This document shows positions 10,251 through 24,002 of a stretch of DNA of 64,000 bases, piece after piece. The stretch lies in contig JALHRQ010000002.1 in the NCBI GenBank assembly GCA_022841375.1, positions 124,001 to 188,000 on the forward strand, given 5' to 3'. Numbering within the stretch: position 1 is the stretch's first letter; every line of letters starts with the position of its first letter. Origin of the DNA: Burkholderiales bacterium (GTDB lineage Bacteria > Pseudomonadota > Gammaproteobacteria > Burkholderiales > SG8-41). The notes under the pieces are model-generated. The model was given only the letters and a program-made list of their open reading frames with translations, was not told the origin of the DNA and ran no database searches. The position numbers were made by a program, and so were the translations under genes.

Positions 10251-12314
10251 ATGAGCAATATACAAAACCTGAACAAGAAACTAGCCGAGCAGGGGCTTGA
10301 ACGCCTGAAACCCTCCGGCAGTACCAGGACCGAAGTGGACAACACTCTTCCCCTTACGGTCGGGTTGGTGCAGATCAACAACAGTTTTTCGGGACAGAAT
10401 TACCTGCCCTACGCGGCTGGTCTGTTGCAGTCCTATACCCAAAAACACGCCCGGCATCTGGAGCGTTATTCCTTTCAGTTGCCGGTCTATTCGCGTGTCC
10501 CGGTAGAGACGGCGGTCGAGCGCCTGCTTGGGGCCGATGTCATCGGATTCTCCGTTTACGTGTGGAATATCCGCATCTCCCTTGAAATCGCCAAACGCAT
10601 CAAGGCTCAGCGCCCGGAAACACTGATTGTTTTCGGCGGTCCGCAGGTTCCGGATCGGGCAGAGGAATTCCTCCGGCAAAATCCCTTCATCGATATTGCC
10701 TGTCACGGTGAAGGAGAGCAGGTATTTCTGTCCATACTTGAAAATTTCCCCTCCGCCACCTGGGAAAACGTCCAGTCCGTCAGTTATCTTTCGGCCGGCA
10801 CGTTCATCAACAATCCCCGCGCCGAACGCATGCGCGACATCACCATGGTTCCGTCGCCCTACCTGTCGGGCATATTCGAACCGCTGATGCAGGCCAATCC
10901 CGATGAGCGGTGGCTGATTCTCTGGGAAACCAACCGGGGCTGTCCGTTCCAGTGCACTTTCTGCGACTGGGGTTCGGCGACCGCCGCCAAGGTCAGCCAG
11001 TTCGACATCGAGCGTCTTCTGCGCGAAGTCGACTGGTTCGCCGAAAAGAAAATCGAATTCATTTTCACTTGCGACGCCAACTACGGCATGCTCGCTCGCG
11101 ATTTCGACATCACCCAATATGTGGTCGACACCAAGCAGCGCCTCGGTTACCCGCGCGCGCTTTCGGTGCAAAACACCAAGAACGGCACGGAGCGCGCCTA
11201 CAAGGTGCAGAAGCTGTTGTCTGATGCCGGTTTGAACAAGGGCGTGGCCCTGTCGCTGCAGTCGGTTGACCCCGAAACGCTGAAAGCGATCAAGCGAGAC
11301 AACATTTCCACCAAGTCATACCAGGAATTACAGCGTCGGTTTACACGAGACCGCGTTGAGACTTACTCCGATCTTATCCTGGGACTGCCGGGCGAAACCT
11401 ATGACTCCTTCGCCGAAGGCATATCCAGCGTCATTGAAAACGGACAGCACAACCGCATTCAGTTCAATAACCTGTCGATACTGCCCAATGCGGAAATGGG
11501 CGACCCCGAGTATCAAAAAAAATACGGCATGGAAATCATCGAGACGGAGATCATCAACATCCACGGCTCGTTGTCGGAGACGCGTGAAGAAATCCTCGAG
11601 ATGCAGCAATTGGTCGTGGCTACTGCTGCCATGCCGCGCGAAGACTGGGTAAAGACCCGGACCCTGTGCTGGATGACTGCGTTCCTGCATTTCGACAAGG
11701 TACTGCAGATACCATTGATCCTTGTTCACGAGACCAGCTCGATCAGCTATCGCGATCTTTTTGAGGCATTCCTGAATGCCGATGAGGAACGATTCCCGGT
11801 GGTGACGCAAATCAGGAATTTCTTCATCGACAAGGCCCGCGACATCCAGAACGGCGGCGCGGAGTACTGTCATTCCGCAGAATGGCTGGACATCTTCTGG
11901 CCAGCTGACGAATATGTGCTGATCAAGCTTTGCAAGGAAGAAACGCTGCATGGCTTTTATGCGGAGGCGGAGCAACTGCTTGTGGACTTCATGAAATCCA
12001 AGTTCGCGGACCTGCCCCGCGAGTTGCTGCATGAGGCCGTTGAGCTTAATCACAAGCTGATCAAATTGCCTTTCCAGAAACAGGATCTCGAATTCGAGAC
12101 CTCACATAATCTCTGGGAGTTCTACCAGCGCGCTCTGGTCGGCGAGACCACGCCTCTGGAAAAAAAACCGGTCATCAATCGCATCAATCGCACAAAGATT
12201 ACTTACAACTCCTGGGACGACTGGTGCCGGGAAGTCATTTGGTACGGCAACAAGAAAGGCGCCTACCTTTACGGCAACGAAACGGCCGAGCGCGAAATCG
12301 CGGGTCACTACTGA
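10251..12314 (+). CDS. B12-binding-domain radical SAM protein
   Basis: 687 residues. Residues about 34-165 form the Rossmann-like B12-binding domain typical of class B radical SAM enzymes (VGFSVYVWN-like strand, FGGPQVP, CHGEGE). The radical SAM cluster motif is CPFQCTFC, Cys 231, 235 and 238, after ETNRG. The remaining 400 residues include a TIM-barrel part (SLQSVDPETLKAIKRDN, LILGLPGETYDSF) and a C-terminal extension of unknown role. Possible chemistry is C-methylation or a radical rearrangement of the sugar. It follows a 133-base AT-rich gap and is nearly contiguous (4 bases) with the aldo/keto reductase gene. Confidence 0.85.
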   Translation: MSNIQNLNKKLAEQGLERLKPSGSTRTEVDNTLPLTVGLVQINNSFSGQNYLPYAAGLLQSYTQKHARHLERYSFQLPVYSRVPVETAVERLLGADVIGFSVYVWNIRISLEIAKRIKAQRPETLIVFGGPQVPDRAEEFLRQNPFIDIACHGEGEQVFLSILENFPSATWENVQSVSYLSAGTFINNPRAERMRDITMVPSPYLSGIFEPLMQANPDERWLILWETNRGCPFQCTFCDWGSATAAKVSQFDIERLLREVDWFAEKKIEFIFTCDANYGMLARDFDITQYVVDTKQRLGYPRALSVQNTKNGTERAYKVQKLLSDAGLNKGVALSLQSVDPETLKAIKRDNISTKSYQELQRRFTRDRVETYSDLILGLPGETYDSFAEGISSVIENGQHNRIQFNNLSILPNAEMGDPEYQKKYGMEIIETEIINIHGSLSETREEILEMQQLVVATAAMPREDWVKTRTLCWMTAFLHFDKVLQIPLILVHETSSISYRDLFEAFLNADEERFPVVTQIRNFFIDKARDIQNGGAEYCHSAEWLDIFWPADEYVLIKLCKEETLHGFYAEAEQLLVDFMKSKFADLPRELLHEAVELNHKLIKLPFQKQDLEFETSHNLWEFYQRALVGETTPLEKKPVINRINRTKITYNSWDDWCREVIWYGNKKGAYLYGNETAEREIAGHY

Positions 12315-18522: not shown

Positions 18523-20499
18523 ATGCAATCACTCTGGAATAAAAAAGAGGCTTCAGGGGTGGAGTCCGACATCGCACTCCGGGTGTATACCTCGCAGCTG
18601 CTCGGCCGTGATCACACGCTGGTCCTGCACGGCGGCGGCAATACGTCCGTCAAGGTTTCGGCAACCAACATTGTTGGCGAAACCGAGGAGCTGCTGTATG
18701 TCAAAGGCAGCGGCTGGGATCTGGAAACCATCGCTGAAGCCGGCTTTTCGCCAGTGCGCATCGCGCATGTGCTGAAGTTGGCAAAGCTTGAGAAGCTATC
18801 GGATCCGCAGATGATGAACGAACTGTCGACGAGCATGACGCGGGCGGGAGCCCCCGCCCCCTCGGTCGAGACCATTCTGCACGCAATCCTGCCCTACAAG
18901 TTCGTCGACCATACCCATGCTGATGCAGTGCTTGCCATCACCAACACGCCGGATGGGGGGCAGCGCATTCGCGAAATCTACGGCAAGGACTGCGTCATTA
19001 TCCCCTACGTAATGCCCGGCTTTGATCTGGCGCGGCTTTGCGCGCAAAAATTCGCCACTGAGTCTCATGGCGGCACCGTTGGCATGGTATTGATGAATCA
19101 TGGCATCTTCTCGTTCGGTGCTACCGCTCATGAATCTTATGAACGAATGATCGAATTGGTCGGGCGCGCCGAGGCCTATCTTGCCGCCCACAAAGCCTGG
19201 CAGTTGCCAGCGCCGCAGTCCGCGCCCGCCGACCGCACACTAAGGCTGGATATCTGCAGCCTGCGTCGCGCAATTTCGGACTCTGCAGGTATGTCCATGC
19301 TGTTACTGACTGACGGAACGCCCAAGGCGCTGTCCTATGCGTGCCACCCGGATATCGGAGTCATTTCGCAACAGGGCCCGGCGACGCCAGACCACGTGTT
19401 GAGAACCAAACGTGTGCCAATGCACGGACGCGACGTCGCCGCTTACGCCAGGGCCTATGAAGATTATTTCAAACGCAACGCCCCCAAGGCCAAGCAGCCG
19501 AAAACCATGCTCGATCCTGCACCAAGAGTCGTCATTGATCAGGAATTCGGACTCGGATATGCCGGCCGCACAACCAAGGATGCAGCGATCGTCCGCGACT
19601 TGTACACGCAGACCATCGACATCATTTTGCGTGCAACTTCGCTGGGCGGATGGAGCGCACTGCCGGAAGCAGATATTTTTGATGTCGAATACTGGGATCT
19701 TGAACAAGCCAAGATAAAGAAAGCGGGGGCTTCTCCCGCATTTGCCGGTGAAGTAGCCTTGGTCACCGGTGCCGCTTCGGGCATCGGCAATGCCTGCGTG
19801 GAAGCACTGCTTCGGCGCGGCGCCGCGGTCATCGGGGTTGATATCAATCCCGGCATCGCCAAGATTTTCTCCGATCGCACCGATTTTCTTGGTCTTTGCT
19901 GCGACATCACCTCTGCCCAAGCCGTCGCCAACGCCCTCGAAACAGGGGTTCGGGCCTTCGGCGGCATTGACATGCTGTTACTTAACGCCGGCATTTTCCC
20001 GGGCGGACGCAGGATTGATTCGCTGCAGGACAATGAGTGGCGCCAGGTAATGCAGGTGAATCTCGACGCCAATCTGATCCTGATGCGTGAATGCCATCCT
20101 TTGCTGAAACTCGCTCCGCGCGGCGGCCGGCTGGTGATTATCGGGTCCAAAAATGTTCCTGCGCCGGGACCCGGTGCGGGTGCCTACTCAGCGTCGAAAG
20201 CGGCACTCACCCAACTCGCGCGTGTGGCGGCGCTGGAATGGGGCGCCGATGGCATCCGGGTCAACACCGTGCACCCCAACGCCGTATTCGACACCGGCAT
20301 CTGGACCGACGATGTGCTGGCCGCACGAGCTAAGCATTACGGCCTGAGCGTGGAGGAATACAAGACCAACAACGTACTCAAGACCGAGGTCACCAGTCGC
20401 GACGTGGCAGAACTCGCGGCGGAAATGTGCGGGGCTTTGTTTGCCAAAACCACTGGGGCGCAGGTTCCGGTGGACGGCGGCAACGACCGTGTCATCTAG
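18523..20499 (+). CDS. Bifunctional class II aldolase / short-chain dehydrogenase
   Basis: 658 residues with two complete enzymes. Residues 15-210 are a class II aldolase: phosphate loop HGGGNTS at 36-42, KGSG at 61-64, catalytic-type Glu in PSVET at 113-117, and zinc ligands HTH at 130-132 and His 193. From about residue 410 comes an SDR: TGAASGIG, NAG, and Ser plus YSASK. The architecture is that of the RhaE-RhaW/YuxG fusion, where DHAP and lactaldehyde are made from rhamnulose 1-phosphate. Here the next genes are mtnP, apt and mtnA, so 5-methylthioribulose 1-phosphate is the likelier substrate. The ATG at 18523 was chosen over an in-frame upstream codon because of its ribosome site. Confidence 0.82.
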   Translation: MQSLWNKKEASGVESDIALRVYTSQLLGRDHTLVLHGGGNTSVKVSATNIVGETEELLYVKGSGWDLETIAEAGFSPVRIAHVLKLAKLEKLSDPQMMNELSTSMTRAGAPAPSVETILHAILPYKFVDHTHADAVLAITNTPDGGQRIREIYGKDCVIIPYVMPGFDLARLCAQKFATESHGGTVGMVLMNHGIFSFGATAHESYERMIELVGRAEAYLAAHKAWQLPAPQSAPADRTLRLDICSLRRAISDSAGMSMLLLTDGTPKALSYACHPDIGVISQQGPATPDHVLRTKRVPMHGRDVAAYARAYEDYFKRNAPKAKQPKTMLDPAPRVVIDQEFGLGYAGRTTKDAAIVRDLYTQTIDIILRATSLGGWSALPEADIFDVEYWDLEQAKIKKAGASPAFAGEVALVTGAASGIGNACVEALLRRGAAVIGVDINPGIAKIFSDRTDFLGLCCDITSAQAVANALETGVRAFGGIDMLLLNAGIFPGGRRIDSLQDNEWRQVMQVNLDANLILMRECHPLLKLAPRGGRLVIIGSKNVPAPGPGAGAYSASKAALTQLARVAALEWGADGIRVNTVHPNAVFDTGIWTDDVLAARAKHYGLSVEEYKTNNVLKTEVTSRDVAELAAEMCGALFAKTTGAQVPVDGGNDRVI

Positions 20500-20540
20500 T
20501 CATCAACCACGGCGCAAGCCGGACATTGCAGGAACATAAC

Positions 20541-21404
20541 ATGCTCGCAATTCTCGGCGGCAGCGGCGTTTACAATATTGACAGCCTGACCAATACCCGC
20601 TGGGTCAAGGTTGACTCACCCTTCGGCGCACCTTCGGACGAAATCCTGACCGGCGATCTCAATGGCCAGCCCATGGCTTTTTTGCCACGCCACGGCCGCG
20701 GTCACCGTATTCCTCCCTCCGAAATCAATTTTCGAGCCAACATTGATGCGCTTAAGCGCATCGGTGCAACCTCCATCATTTCGGTAAGTGCTGTGGGCTC
20801 GCTTCGCGAACACCTGCCTCCGGGCATGTTCGTGATCGTCGATCAGTTTATTGATCGTACATTTGCCAGAACCAAGAGTTTCTTTGAAACCGGCCTGGTC
20901 GCACATGTTTCGATGGCGCATCCGGTCTGCCCGCGACTCGGTAACGCCATCGAAACCGCTGCGACAAAATCAGGCCTGCGCTACGTGCGCGGCGGCACCT
21001 ACCTCGTTATGGAAGGTCCCCAGTTCTCCAGCCTTGCCGAGTCGGAGTTGTACCGGTCATGGAATTGCGACGTTATTGGCATGACCAACATGCCCGAAGC
21101 CAAGCTCGCCCGCGAAGCGGAAATTTGTTATGCCACTGTTGCCATGGTCACCGACTACGATTGCTGGCATCCCCAGCATGCCGATGTAACGGTGGACATG
21201 ATCATCAAGACCCTGCTTGCAAATGCAGACAATGCCCGTTCCTTGGTCAAAGTTGCCGCCCCGATCATTGCAAACGAGTCCAGGCCCTGCCCGCATGGTT
21301 GCCAGACCGCACTGGAACACGCGCTGATCACCGCCCCGGATGCACGTGACCCGGCAGCAATACGGCGCCTCGATGCTGTGGCGGGTCGCGTCTTGAATCG
21401 TTAA
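20541..21404 (+). CDS. mtnP: 5'-methylthioadenosine phosphorylase
   Basis: 287 residues of the trimeric PNP/MTAP family. [41 protein letters not shown] and GMTNMPEA are family blocks. TDYDCW keeps the Asp pair that selects adenine, as in human MTAP, which separates it from methylthioinosine phosphorylases. It would convert 5'-methylthioadenosine and phosphate to adenine and 5-methylthioribose 1-phosphate in the cytosol. 5'-deoxyadenosine is a common side substrate of this family. The start has AGGAAC upstream, 41 bases after the aldolase stop. Confidence 0.9.
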
Positions 21405-21420
21405 CTGCAGGAGCCCCGAT

Positions 21421-21948
21421 ATGACCGTCAAATCGCGTATCAGAACCATCCCCCATTACCCGAAACAGGGGATCATGTTCCGTGACATCACCAGCCTGCT
21501 ACAGGATCCCGTCGGATTCCGACTGACCATCAACGACCTGGCACATCGCTATGCCGGGATGAAGATTGACAAGGTCGCAGGCGTCGAATCCCGAGGTTTC
21601 ATTATCGGTGCCGCGCTTGCTTATCAGCTGGGCACCGGGTTTGTACCGATCCGGAAAAAAGGCAAGCTGCCCGGCAAGACGATGGGGCGTGACTATGATC
21701 TCGAATACGGTACTGATCGCATTGAAATCCACGTCGATGCCATCGCCAAGGGCGAGAAGGTGCTGCTGGTCGACGACCTGATTGCAACCGGCGGCACCGC
21801 AGAAGCCGCGGCAGCACTGATCGAAGATCTTGGTGGAAAAATAATCGAATGCTGCTTTGTCATTGATCTGCCCGACATCGGCGGCCGCAAAAGACTGGAG
21901 GACAAAGGTCTAAAGGTTTTTGCTCTTTGCGAATTCGAGGGCGACTGA
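21421..21948 (+). CDS. apt: Adenine phosphoribosyltransferase
   Basis: 175 residues, the normal length. [21 protein letters not shown] is the Apt N-terminus (shown in part), [16 protein letters not shown] is the adenine-side loop, and [14 protein letters not shown] is the PRPP-binding motif. It returns the adenine released by MtnP to AMP. It lies 16 bases after mtnP and two bases before mtnA, so the three are co-transcribed. Confidence 0.93.
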
Positions 21949-21950
21949 AA

Positions 21951-23012
21951 ATGCCGGACCAGTCTTCAACGACAGTAGAAACACTGCGGTGGCGCAACAA
22001 CCGTATCGAGATGATCGATCAGCGTATCCTGCCCGGCCGCATTGAATACCCTGGTTTTGATTCCGCCGCTGGCGTAGCGCAAGCCATTCGCGACATGGTC
22101 ATTCGCGGCGCACCGGCAATTGGCTGTGCTGCGGCGTACGGTGTTGCTGTGGAGGCTTTGCGCCTCTCAACGTTGTCACAGGCCGATTTTGCACGTGGAT
22201 TGGACAACGCTTTTGCTGTTCTCGCCCAAAGCCGCCCGACAGCGGTTAACCTTTTCTGGGCTCTTGACCGGATGCGAAAGCTTCATGCCAACCTGCTGGG
22301 TCAGCCCGTTGCTGCAGTGGCTCAGCGGCTGCTTGAGGAAGCACATAACATCACCGCGCAGGACATCACCATCAACCAGAAAATGGGGGGGTTTGGTGCC
22401 GCGCTTCTTCCCGACAAATCCAGAGTGCTGACTCATTGCAATGCAGGCGCGCTGGCGACCGCTGGACATGGCACCGCCCTCGGGGTCATCCGGTCCGCCG
22501 TGTTGGCGGGGAAATCACTGAAGGTGTTCGCTGACGAAACACGCCCTTTCCTGCAGGGCGCACGATTGACGGCGTGGGAACTTTTGCAGGAAAAGATTCC
22601 GGTAACGCTGATCACTGACAATATGTCCGGTCATCTGATGAGTTGCGGCGAAATCGATGTGGTGGTGGTAGGTACGGACCGCGTCGCAGCCAATGGAGAT
22701 GTTGCAAACAAGATCGGCACCTATATGGTGGCTGTGCTCGCCCGACGTCACAACATCCCGTTTTATGTAGCCTGCCCGCTTTCCACGATTGACCGCTCAA
22801 TTACCGACGGAAGTCAGATCCCGATAGAGGAACGCTCTGATGCAGAAGTGCGGGGTTACGGAGGGATCGAATGGGCCCCGATCGGCGTATCCATCAGGAA
22901 TCCGGCATTCGACATTACGCCAGCAGAGCTTGTTACCGCCCTGATAACCGAAAATGGAGTTGTTACAGCCCCGGACCGGCAAAAAATTGCTGCGCTATTT
23001 GCGGAATCCTAA
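21951..23012 (+). CDS. mtnA: S-methyl-5-thioribose-1-phosphate isomerase
   Basis: 353 residues, eIF2B-alpha-like fold. RGAPAIGCAAAYG, THCNAGALATAGHGTALG with the catalytic Cys, and VVGTDRVAANGDVANKIGTY with the catalytic Asp are all intact. It turns the aldose product of MtnP into 5-methylthioribulose 1-phosphate. None of the downstream aerobic salvage genes (mtnB, mtnC, mtnD) is nearby; the only enzyme next to it that could use the product is the fused aldolase. The ATG at 21951 was chosen over an upstream in-frame codon that would overlap apt. Confidence 0.93.
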   Translation: MPDQSSTTVETLRWRNNRIEMIDQRILPGRIEYPGFDSAAGVAQAIRDMVIRGAPAIGCAAAYGVAVEALRLSTLSQADFARGLDNAFAVLAQSRPTAVNLFWALDRMRKLHANLLGQPVAAVAQRLLEEAHNITAQDITINQKMGGFGAALLPDKSRVLTHCNAGALATAGHGTALGVIRSAVLAGKSLKVFADETRPFLQGARLTAWELLQEKIPVTLITDNMSGHLMSCGEIDVVVVGTDRVAANGDVANKIGTYMVAVLARRHNIPFYVACPLSTIDRSITDGSQIPIEERSDAEVRGYGGIEWAPIGVSIRNPAFDITPAELVTALITENGVVTAPDRQKIAALFAES

Positions 23013-23024
23013 AGTCTGAACACG

Positions 23025-24002
23025 ATGCCCGAAGTAACCCCCCGTACAATACTAGTCACAGGCGCTGCAGGATTCATCGGCAACGCCTTGCTGACAGCCT
23101 TGAGCGGACGGCAGGTGCGGCGCGTGCTACGTCAGGCAGAAGAGAAAGCCTTGCCAGGGGATGTGATTGTCGGCGACATCAGTCCCGATACCGACTGGAG
23201 GCCTCTACTTTGCGGTGTCGATTGCGTGGTGCACTTAGCCGCGAGAACCCATGTACTCGACGACTCTTCGATCAATCCGCTGGAAGCCTACAGACACAGC
23301 AACGTCGAAGTGACACGTCGACTGGCACAACAGGCCTCTGCCGCGGGAGTACGCCGATTCGTGTTCCTGAGCTCGATCAAGGTCAATGGCGAGGCTACAC
23401 CGGGAAACCCGTTCTCGGAATCCGACCCCCCTGCTCCACAGGACGCTTACGGCATCAGCAAGCTCGAAGCAGAAAACGTGCTGCGGACCGTGGGCGACCA
23501 TTCAAAAATGGAATGGGTCATTCTCCGCCCACCGCTAGTCTACGGGCCGGGCGTTAAAGGTAATTTTCTGCGTCTGATGAATCTCATCTCCCGAGGCACA
23601 CCGCTGCCGTTGGCCTCGGTTCGAAACCAGCGAAGCTTGATTCATGTTGAAAATCTCGCTGGTGCCATTGTCATTTGTATTGACGCGCCAGCCGCCGCTG
23701 GACAGCAATGGTTGATCAGTGATGGCCATGACATCTCCACGCCCGACCTGATCCGTACCTTGGCCCTGGGCCTGAACCGTCCAGCACGTCTGCTGCCGTG
23801 CCCGTTAGCGCTACTTAAATTCGGCGCAGCACTTTGTGGCCAGCAAGCTGCCATGGCACGTCTTACCGGATCACTCAGGGTGGATGCTTCTGCATTGCGC
23901 CACACACTGCGCTGGGACCCGCGAATCCCACTGGAACAAGGACTTACCGACACTGCCCGGTGGTATCATCGGCTCAAATACAACGCGGGTTATGACCCAT
24001 AA
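23025..24002 (+). CDS. NAD-dependent epimerase/4-reductase, WbpV-like
   Basis: 325 residues, extended SDR. ILVTGAAGFIGNALL starts the Rossmann fold, LSSIKVNGE gives the Ser, YGISKLEAE the YxxxK pair. Followed directly by WbpL- and WbpM-like genes, the same trio as in Pseudomonas aeruginosa O6-type loci, where WbpM dehydrates UDP-GlcNAc and WbpV reduces the 4-keto group to give UDP-QuiNAc. A UDP-FucNAc product is the alternative. Confidence 0.8.
   Translation: MPEVTPRTILVTGAAGFIGNALLTALSGRQVRRVLRQAEEKALPGDVIVGDISPDTDWRPLLCGVDCVVHLAARTHVLDDSSINPLEAYRHSNVEVTRRLAQQASAAGVRRFVFLSSIKVNGEATPGNPFSESDPPAPQDAYGISKLEAENVLRTVGDHSKMEWVILRPPLVYGPGVKGNFLRLMNLISRGTPLPLASVRNQRSLIHVENLAGAIVICIDAPAAAGQQWLISDGHDISTPDLIRTLALGLNRPARLLPCPLALLKFGAALCGQQAAMARLTGSLRVDASALRHTLRWDPRIPLEQGLTDTARWYHRLKYNAGYDP

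Follow-up and report, generated by a model that had tools for sequence, protein, structure and literature searches.

In a 64,000-nucleotide (nt) stretch of the draft genome of a Burkholderiales bacterium (the window, G000:C2:124001-188000; genome G000 is a 4.08-Mb draft in 66 contigs, 99% complete), a gene encoding a class II aldolase fused to a short-chain dehydrogenase/reductase (SDR) is followed by mtnP, apt and mtnA. As argued from sequence, genomic context and relatedness, this module likely serves as a dihydroxyacetone phosphate (DHAP)-shunt salvage module for the 5′-deoxynucleoside by-products of S-adenosylmethionine (SAM), taking in 5′-methylthioadenosine (MTA) and probably also 5′-deoxyadenosine. 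The DHAP-shunt reading had already been proposed in the initial annotation of this DNA, and gains support from the linkage and co-occurrence of the fusion with mtnA, from decay of the SDR half beside mtnA, and from the probable replacement of an ancestral aldolase–mtnA pair, while the chemistry itself is predicted. The module consists of the following features:

18523..20499, + strand: class II aldolase-SDR fusion, 658 residues (open reading frame; PRK08324.2-4, NF006196)
18586-19182, + strand: aldolase domain of the fusion, residues 22-220 (Pfam Aldolase_II, PF00596)
between the aldolase and SDR domains, + strand: linking region of the fusion
19753-20481, + strand: SDR domain of the fusion, residues 411-653 (Pfam adh_short 411-593, adh_short_C2 416-653)
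18484, + strand: upstream TTG, alternative start of the fusion
20541..21404, + strand: mtnP, 5′-methylthioadenosine phosphorylase (PRK08931, NF006492; 504 bits, cut-off 437)
21421..21948, + strand: apt, adenine phosphoribosyltransferase (PRK02304, NF002634; 282 bits, cut-off 170)
21951..23012, + strand: mtnA, 5-methylthioribose-1-phosphate isomerase (TIGR00512; 444 bits, cut-off 279)

The open reading frames, the gaps of 41, 16 and 2 nt between them and the family scores above cut-off confirm the four closely packed forward genes of the initial annotation, all of them full-length, and the Pfam matches likewise place aldolase and SDR in a single polypeptide. The fusion covers the entire PRK08324.2-4 model (positions 1-657 of 657) with 1082 bits against a cut-off of 831; the name of this family, "bifunctional aldolase/short-chain dehydrogenase", describes domains only and gives no substrate. 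The mtnA gene is the sole mtnA match in the genome at E 1e-40. A promoter scan of the + strand revealed no promoter-like site immediately 5′ of the fusion. A contaminating contig is unlikely, with tetranucleotide correlations to the rest of the genome of 0.94 and 0.99 for the window flanks and 0.93 for the module.

Linkage and co-occurrence of the fusion with mtnA

A survey of 300 genomes of the same order yielded NF006196 matches in 51 of them at E 1e-100, of which 27 scored above the cut-off (referred to as full-score genomes). While mtnA was matched in 151 of the 300 genomes, it was present in all 27 full-score genomes versus 124 of the 273 others (Fisher p 4e-9, relatedness not corrected). 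Moreover, it lay within 1.5 kb of the fusion in 25 of the 27 full-score genomes, window included, and the linkage seen in the window is therefore not due to chance. Within the order, linked mtnA genes were located downstream of the fusion, and all but that of L050 were on the same strand. The two full-score genomes outside this count were G295, whose mtnA shares a contig with the fusion at a distance of 13 kb, and G002. The 24 lower-scoring genomes included 22 with mtnA; the two without it (G056 and G105) carried a RhaEW-type protein (rhamnulose-1-phosphate aldolase/lactaldehyde dehydrogenase) adjoining an L-rhamnose isomerase, thus providing an unplanned control within the same search. The complete gene order fusion-mtnP-apt-mtnA recurred at six further loci (L052, L053, L057, L101, L109 and L152), two loci showed fusion-mtnP up to the contig end (L114 and L120), and two others the order apt-fusion-mtnA (L058 and L061).

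A wider scan of named genomes, of which the best 80 matches (77 distinct loci) were considered, placed fusions in Pseudomonadota, Cyanobacteriota, Verrucomicrobiota, Chloroflexota and Myxococcota. Among 39 fusion genomes of other taxa, hand-chosen and mostly unlinked (the two linked ones being L101 and L122), mtnA was present in 36, or in 34 of 37 when the linked two are left aside. Within Cyanobacteria, the fusion was found in 17 of 292 genomes.

Several observations weigh against a role in the DHAP shunt. Outside the order, mtnA was linked to the fusion at 19 of the 77 distinct loci among the best 80 matches and unlinked at 48, the other 10 ending less than 900 bases downstream. Three of the 39 tested genomes (G306, G314 and G315) showed no mtnA, although these drafts may be incomplete. 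In addition, mtnA is common in some groups outside the order, so that co-occurrence weighs little there. This applies to the 13 cyanobacterial genomes among the 39, all of which carry mtnA, because mtnA has also been reported in cyanobacteria without a DHAP shunt (PMC8102628; here and below, citations refer to the available passages of each paper). Finally, one clade described below has dispensed with the SDR, which shows that the pathway can manage without its second step.

The neighbours of unlinked fusions comprised a cyanobacterial gene set and betaproteobacterial housekeeping genes. At six of the 80 loci (L113, L133, L144, L147, L150 and L156), none with a linked mtnA, glycerophosphodiester-phosphodiesterase-like and FAD-dependent dehydrogenase-like genes, named by eye, lay within 4 kb.

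Proposed chemistry and predicted role of the fused SDR

In the pathway that we propose, MtnP would perform phosphorolysis of the nucleoside to adenine and a 5-substituted ribose 1-phosphate, upon which Apt would convert the adenine to AMP and MtnA would isomerise the sugar phosphate to the corresponding ribulose 1-phosphate. The aldolase domain would then split the latter into DHAP plus a short aldehyde (methylthioacetaldehyde or acetaldehyde), and the fused NAD(H)-type SDR half would remove this aldehyde, possibly with channelling. As the equilibrium of the cleavage lies towards the sugar phosphate, this removal would draw the reaction forward. Indeed, aldol cleavage of such sugar phosphates has a Keq of ~1e-4, far to the substrate side (PMC6079011), and RhaEW without NAD+ yielded neither DHAP nor lactate (PMC3870299). 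Both MTA and 5′-deoxyadenosine are plausible inputs, because MtnA and Ald2 have been described for both (PMC10986504) and the MtnP of Synechococcus acts on 5′-deoxyadenosine (PMC8102628).

The module resembles the known Ald2/DrdA-type DHAP shunt of R. rubrum, R. palustris, E. coli and B. thuringiensis (PMC5893883, PMC10986504, PMC6079011), in which MtnP (or a nucleosidase plus kinase) and MtnA feed a class II aldolase; an MTA/5′-deoxyadenosine phosphorylase and MtnA are likewise encoded with a class II aldolase here, in a genome without an acireductone dioxygenase match. It differs in that its aldolase is assigned to the RhaE lineage, not to the FucA-like Ald2/DrdA type, and carries an SDR. 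Foldseek returned 3m4r, a class II aldolase domain, as the top match of the fusion model, and phmmer of the aldolase part against PDB sequences (E up to 10) gave 3m4r as its only match, with no DrdA, FucA or RhaD chain among the matches. The AlphaFold model was only fair (predicted local distance difference test score of 78, with a low-scoring SDR C-terminus).

The initial annotation had also stated that the aerobic salvage genes mtnB, mtnC and mtnD are absent. This held for mtnD, as acireductone dioxygenase had no match in the draft genome (with a B. subtilis control being matched); across the order it occurred in four of the 300 genomes and in none of the 27 full-score ones. For mtnB, the MtnB models matched none of the six other class II aldolase loci (three domain-only, three listed at E 1e-20), whereas the absence of mtnC is presumed from the initial annotation, no search having been aimed at it. 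Elsewhere in the genome, an S-methyl-5′-thioinosine phosphorylase gene (L166:1474-2337, - strand, G000:C5; 349 bits, cut-off 223) adjoins a hypoxanthine-guanine phosphoribosyltransferase gene, giving the genome another way of reaching this sugar phosphate from a nucleoside.

In an alignment of 107 fusion rows (104 distinct sequences), the aldolase residues E116, H130, H132 and H193 were identical throughout, as were G416, G420, G422, D440, N488, A489, G490, N513, S542, Y555 and K559 of the SDR. All 107 rows thus display the classical SDR features, namely the glycine-rich cofactor motif, NAG and the Asn-Ser-Tyr-Lys tetrad, with Asp440 presumably marking an NAD site and N513 being the customary fourth residue of the tetrad. 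These conserved residues argue that the fused SDR should be an active NAD(H)-type enzyme.

Since Asn513 is retained, we lean slightly towards reduction of the aldehyde to an alcohol over oxidation to an acid. An SDR that, next to the same aldolase role, oxidises the aldehyde to acetate or methylthioacetate with NAD+, like RhaW does with lactaldehyde, is nevertheless a serious contender, if one somewhat short of an even chance. Among fusions that have been characterised, the closest are the RhaEW proteins of Chloroflexus aurantiacus and B. subtilis; these do oxidise (PMC3870299), which counts against our lean, and the Ser-Tyr-Lys residues and NAD-site Asp are kept in both the fusion and RhaEW types. 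However, the invariant N513 of the fusions corresponds to Leu in 32 of 33 RhaEW rows, suggesting a different chemistry, and the product seen with Ald2 in R. palustris was 2-(methylthio)ethanol (PMC5893883).

Decay of the SDR half and probable replacement of an older aldolase–mtnA pair

Loci retrieved from 14 of the 24 lower-scoring genomes comprised two RhaEW, one fusion cut at contig ends (G135, not in the tree), eight truncated-SDR and three aldolase-only forms. The eight truncated forms (L071, L072, L073, L074, L077, L081, L082 and L083) combine a complete aldolase with a vestigial SDR; none of the eight retains the catalytic Y555, and most other motif residues have likewise been lost. Each of these eight and of the three aldolase-only homologues adjoins mtnA (11/11), and together they form one clade with a support of 100 (in a quick tree, three long rows of which were flagged). 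What is left of the second half can still be recognised as SDR, so these forms are most simply explained by loss from an ancestor that was fused; on this view, the fusion would have decayed toward a bare aldolase in one betaproteobacterial clade.

The same eleven homologues might suggest that only the aldolase serves the shunt, with the SDR half acting on a different substrate or contributing mainly to structure. We consider this unlikely, as the eleven cofactor-site and catalytic residues of the SDR are invariant in the full fusions and the decayed and SDR-free forms are limited to that single clade.

The history of the locus also bears on the proposed salvage function. Two genus mates (G090 and G203) carry an aldolase-only gene with mtnA (L078 and L079), and at L078 this pair is flanked by FabG and by an acetyltransferase-like gene (named by eye, without an NCBIfam match). 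A homologue of this acetyltransferase-like gene lies just 5′ of a full fusion with mtnA at L055, in the same family. The genome of the window keeps the L078-type site (L208), with a FabG 92% identical, an acetyltransferase-like gene 60% identical and homologues of four more neighbours. Between FabG and the acetyltransferase-like gene, however, this site has no aldolase and holds only a 61-residue C-terminal scrap of mtnA (L208:5906-6088, G000:C5; 37/61 identical, E 1e-20). Two other genus mates, G046 and G233, show neither fusion or aldolase nor mtnA. Probably, then, the window module replaced a lost ancestral aldolase–mtnA pair, and having taken over from such a pair would imply the same job.

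A single origin of all fusion-mtnP-apt-mtnA modules was rejected, in that placing the window fusion inside seven other mtnP-linked fusions gave a p of 0.0016 in the approximately unbiased test, the group having been defined once a first tree was available. The tree of mtnA was weakly resolved and put the window mtnA beside that of L057, itself a module member, with a support of 88. The gene order may thus have arisen more than once. Beside the fusions of L050, L058, L061, L109, L139 and L160, the mtnA genes form a deep branch of their own, sharing 42-47% identity with the window mtnA, so that different isomerases are paired with the same fusion.

The O-antigen setting, RhaEW and the wider family

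The initial annotation had placed the module in an O-antigen operon. The spacing fits, as the first downstream O-antigen gene, of the NAD-dependent epimerase type as read by eye from its translation (23025..24002, + strand), starts 12 nt past mtnA. The setting, however, recurs near only some relatives, with homologues of the window polysaccharide genes near 10 of 120 relative loci (most clearly L053 and L057, both module members) and many fusions lying among other genes. The O-antigen placement is therefore real but looks incidental, as if the module were being carried along on a variable island.

The O-antigen region also contains a gene for a cobalamin-binding radical-SAM protein (window 10251-12314), whose best match is the KedN5 C-methyltransferase subfamily (279 bits, far below the cut-off of 700). 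Physical closeness and the ten loci just mentioned could hint at a module that serves the O-antigen cluster, for example by clearing 5′-deoxyadenosine from this B12-radical-SAM enzyme, but given the many fusions that sit among other genes we hold this to be improbable. A tie to the radical-SAM gene itself was rejected, since no homologue occurs near any of the 120 relative loci, many of which span less than 20 kb.

That the fusion is simply a RhaEW lying beside mtnP-apt-mtnA by accident is very improbable. RhaEW/YuxG (PMC3870299) does share with the fusion its Aldolase_II and SDR domains in one chain and in the same order, end-to-end homology (413 bits with TIGR02632) and a cleavage followed by aldehyde removal. 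Yet these scores remain below the cut-offs of the RhaEW models (413 vs 568 bits for TIGR02632; 397 vs 634 bits for NF006189), the aldolase parts are 29-30% identical, and a quick tree built from 121 aldolase rows set the three RhaEW rows apart with a support of 100. Furthermore, 37 alignment columns are near-fixed differently between the two types (in at least 97% of the 107 fusions versus at least 31 of the 33 RhaEW rows), with E116 of the fusions being Asp in 33/33 RhaEW rows and the N513 position counting among these columns as well. The neighbours differ as well: a rhamnose isomerase, RhaI, occurs in the flank (mostly 1.5 kb) of 22 of the 32 distinct RhaEW loci (G056 being present twice among the 33 rows, as L076 and L191) and mtnA in none of the 32, whereas mtnA linkage recurs among fusions. 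No RhaI-type isomerase was found in the genome of the window; an E. coli control was matched with the same model, and the classical RhaA was not separately searched. Orthology to RhaE/RhaW alongside a rhamnose operon, which the initial annotation had named as one challenge to its reading and had proposed to examine by phylogeny, is rejected on these scores, the separate branch, the missing RhaI-type isomerase and the mtnA linkage. The phylogeny set the aldolase apart from RhaEW, and the PDB matches brought in no DrdA, FucA or RhaD.

The initial annotation further held that an aldolase-dehydrogenase fusion for methionine salvage had not been described. Although the family to which the fusion belongs is already catalogued, its role does appear undescribed: the open-access literature yielded no assignment of an aldolase-SDR fusion to MTA or 5′-deoxyadenosine, the bearing passages being those in PMC10986504, PMC6079011, PMC6302742, PMC5893883, PMC8102628, PMC3870299 and PMC12632272, with subscription papers, including the founding DHAP-shunt work, lying outside this range. 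On balance we think it likely that PRK08324.2-4 represents an independent and widespread DHAP shunt, in which a RhaE-lineage aldolase would have been recruited apart from Ald2/DrdA, with a same-chain aldehyde dehydrogenase/reductase driving the unfavourable cleavage and a bare aldolase in one betaproteobacterial clade. In the minority of cyanobacteria that carry it, the fusion would be a candidate 5′-deoxyadenosine route; cyanobacterial strains that lack Ald2 have to rely on a different pathway for this compound (PMC8102628).

This assignment provides a concrete substrate prediction for a family whose name tells no more than its domains, a rationale for the fusion (aldehyde removal driving cleavage), and a candidate for the dehydrogenase that the DHAP-shunt papers call putative, its enzyme not having been identified (PMC5893883). 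It also cautions against the tempting annotation of PRK08324.2-4 proteins as rhamnulose aldolases, and the fused, decayed and SDR-free forms adjoining the same isomerase offer a natural experiment. Arabidopsis DEP1 and Tetrahymena MtnBD (PMC6079011, PMC6302742, PMC2759508, PMC3698126) are likewise fusions built on a step in which an aldolase-superfamily domain acts on methylthioribulose 1-phosphate, although both are part of the dioxygenase route and the domains joined to them are different.

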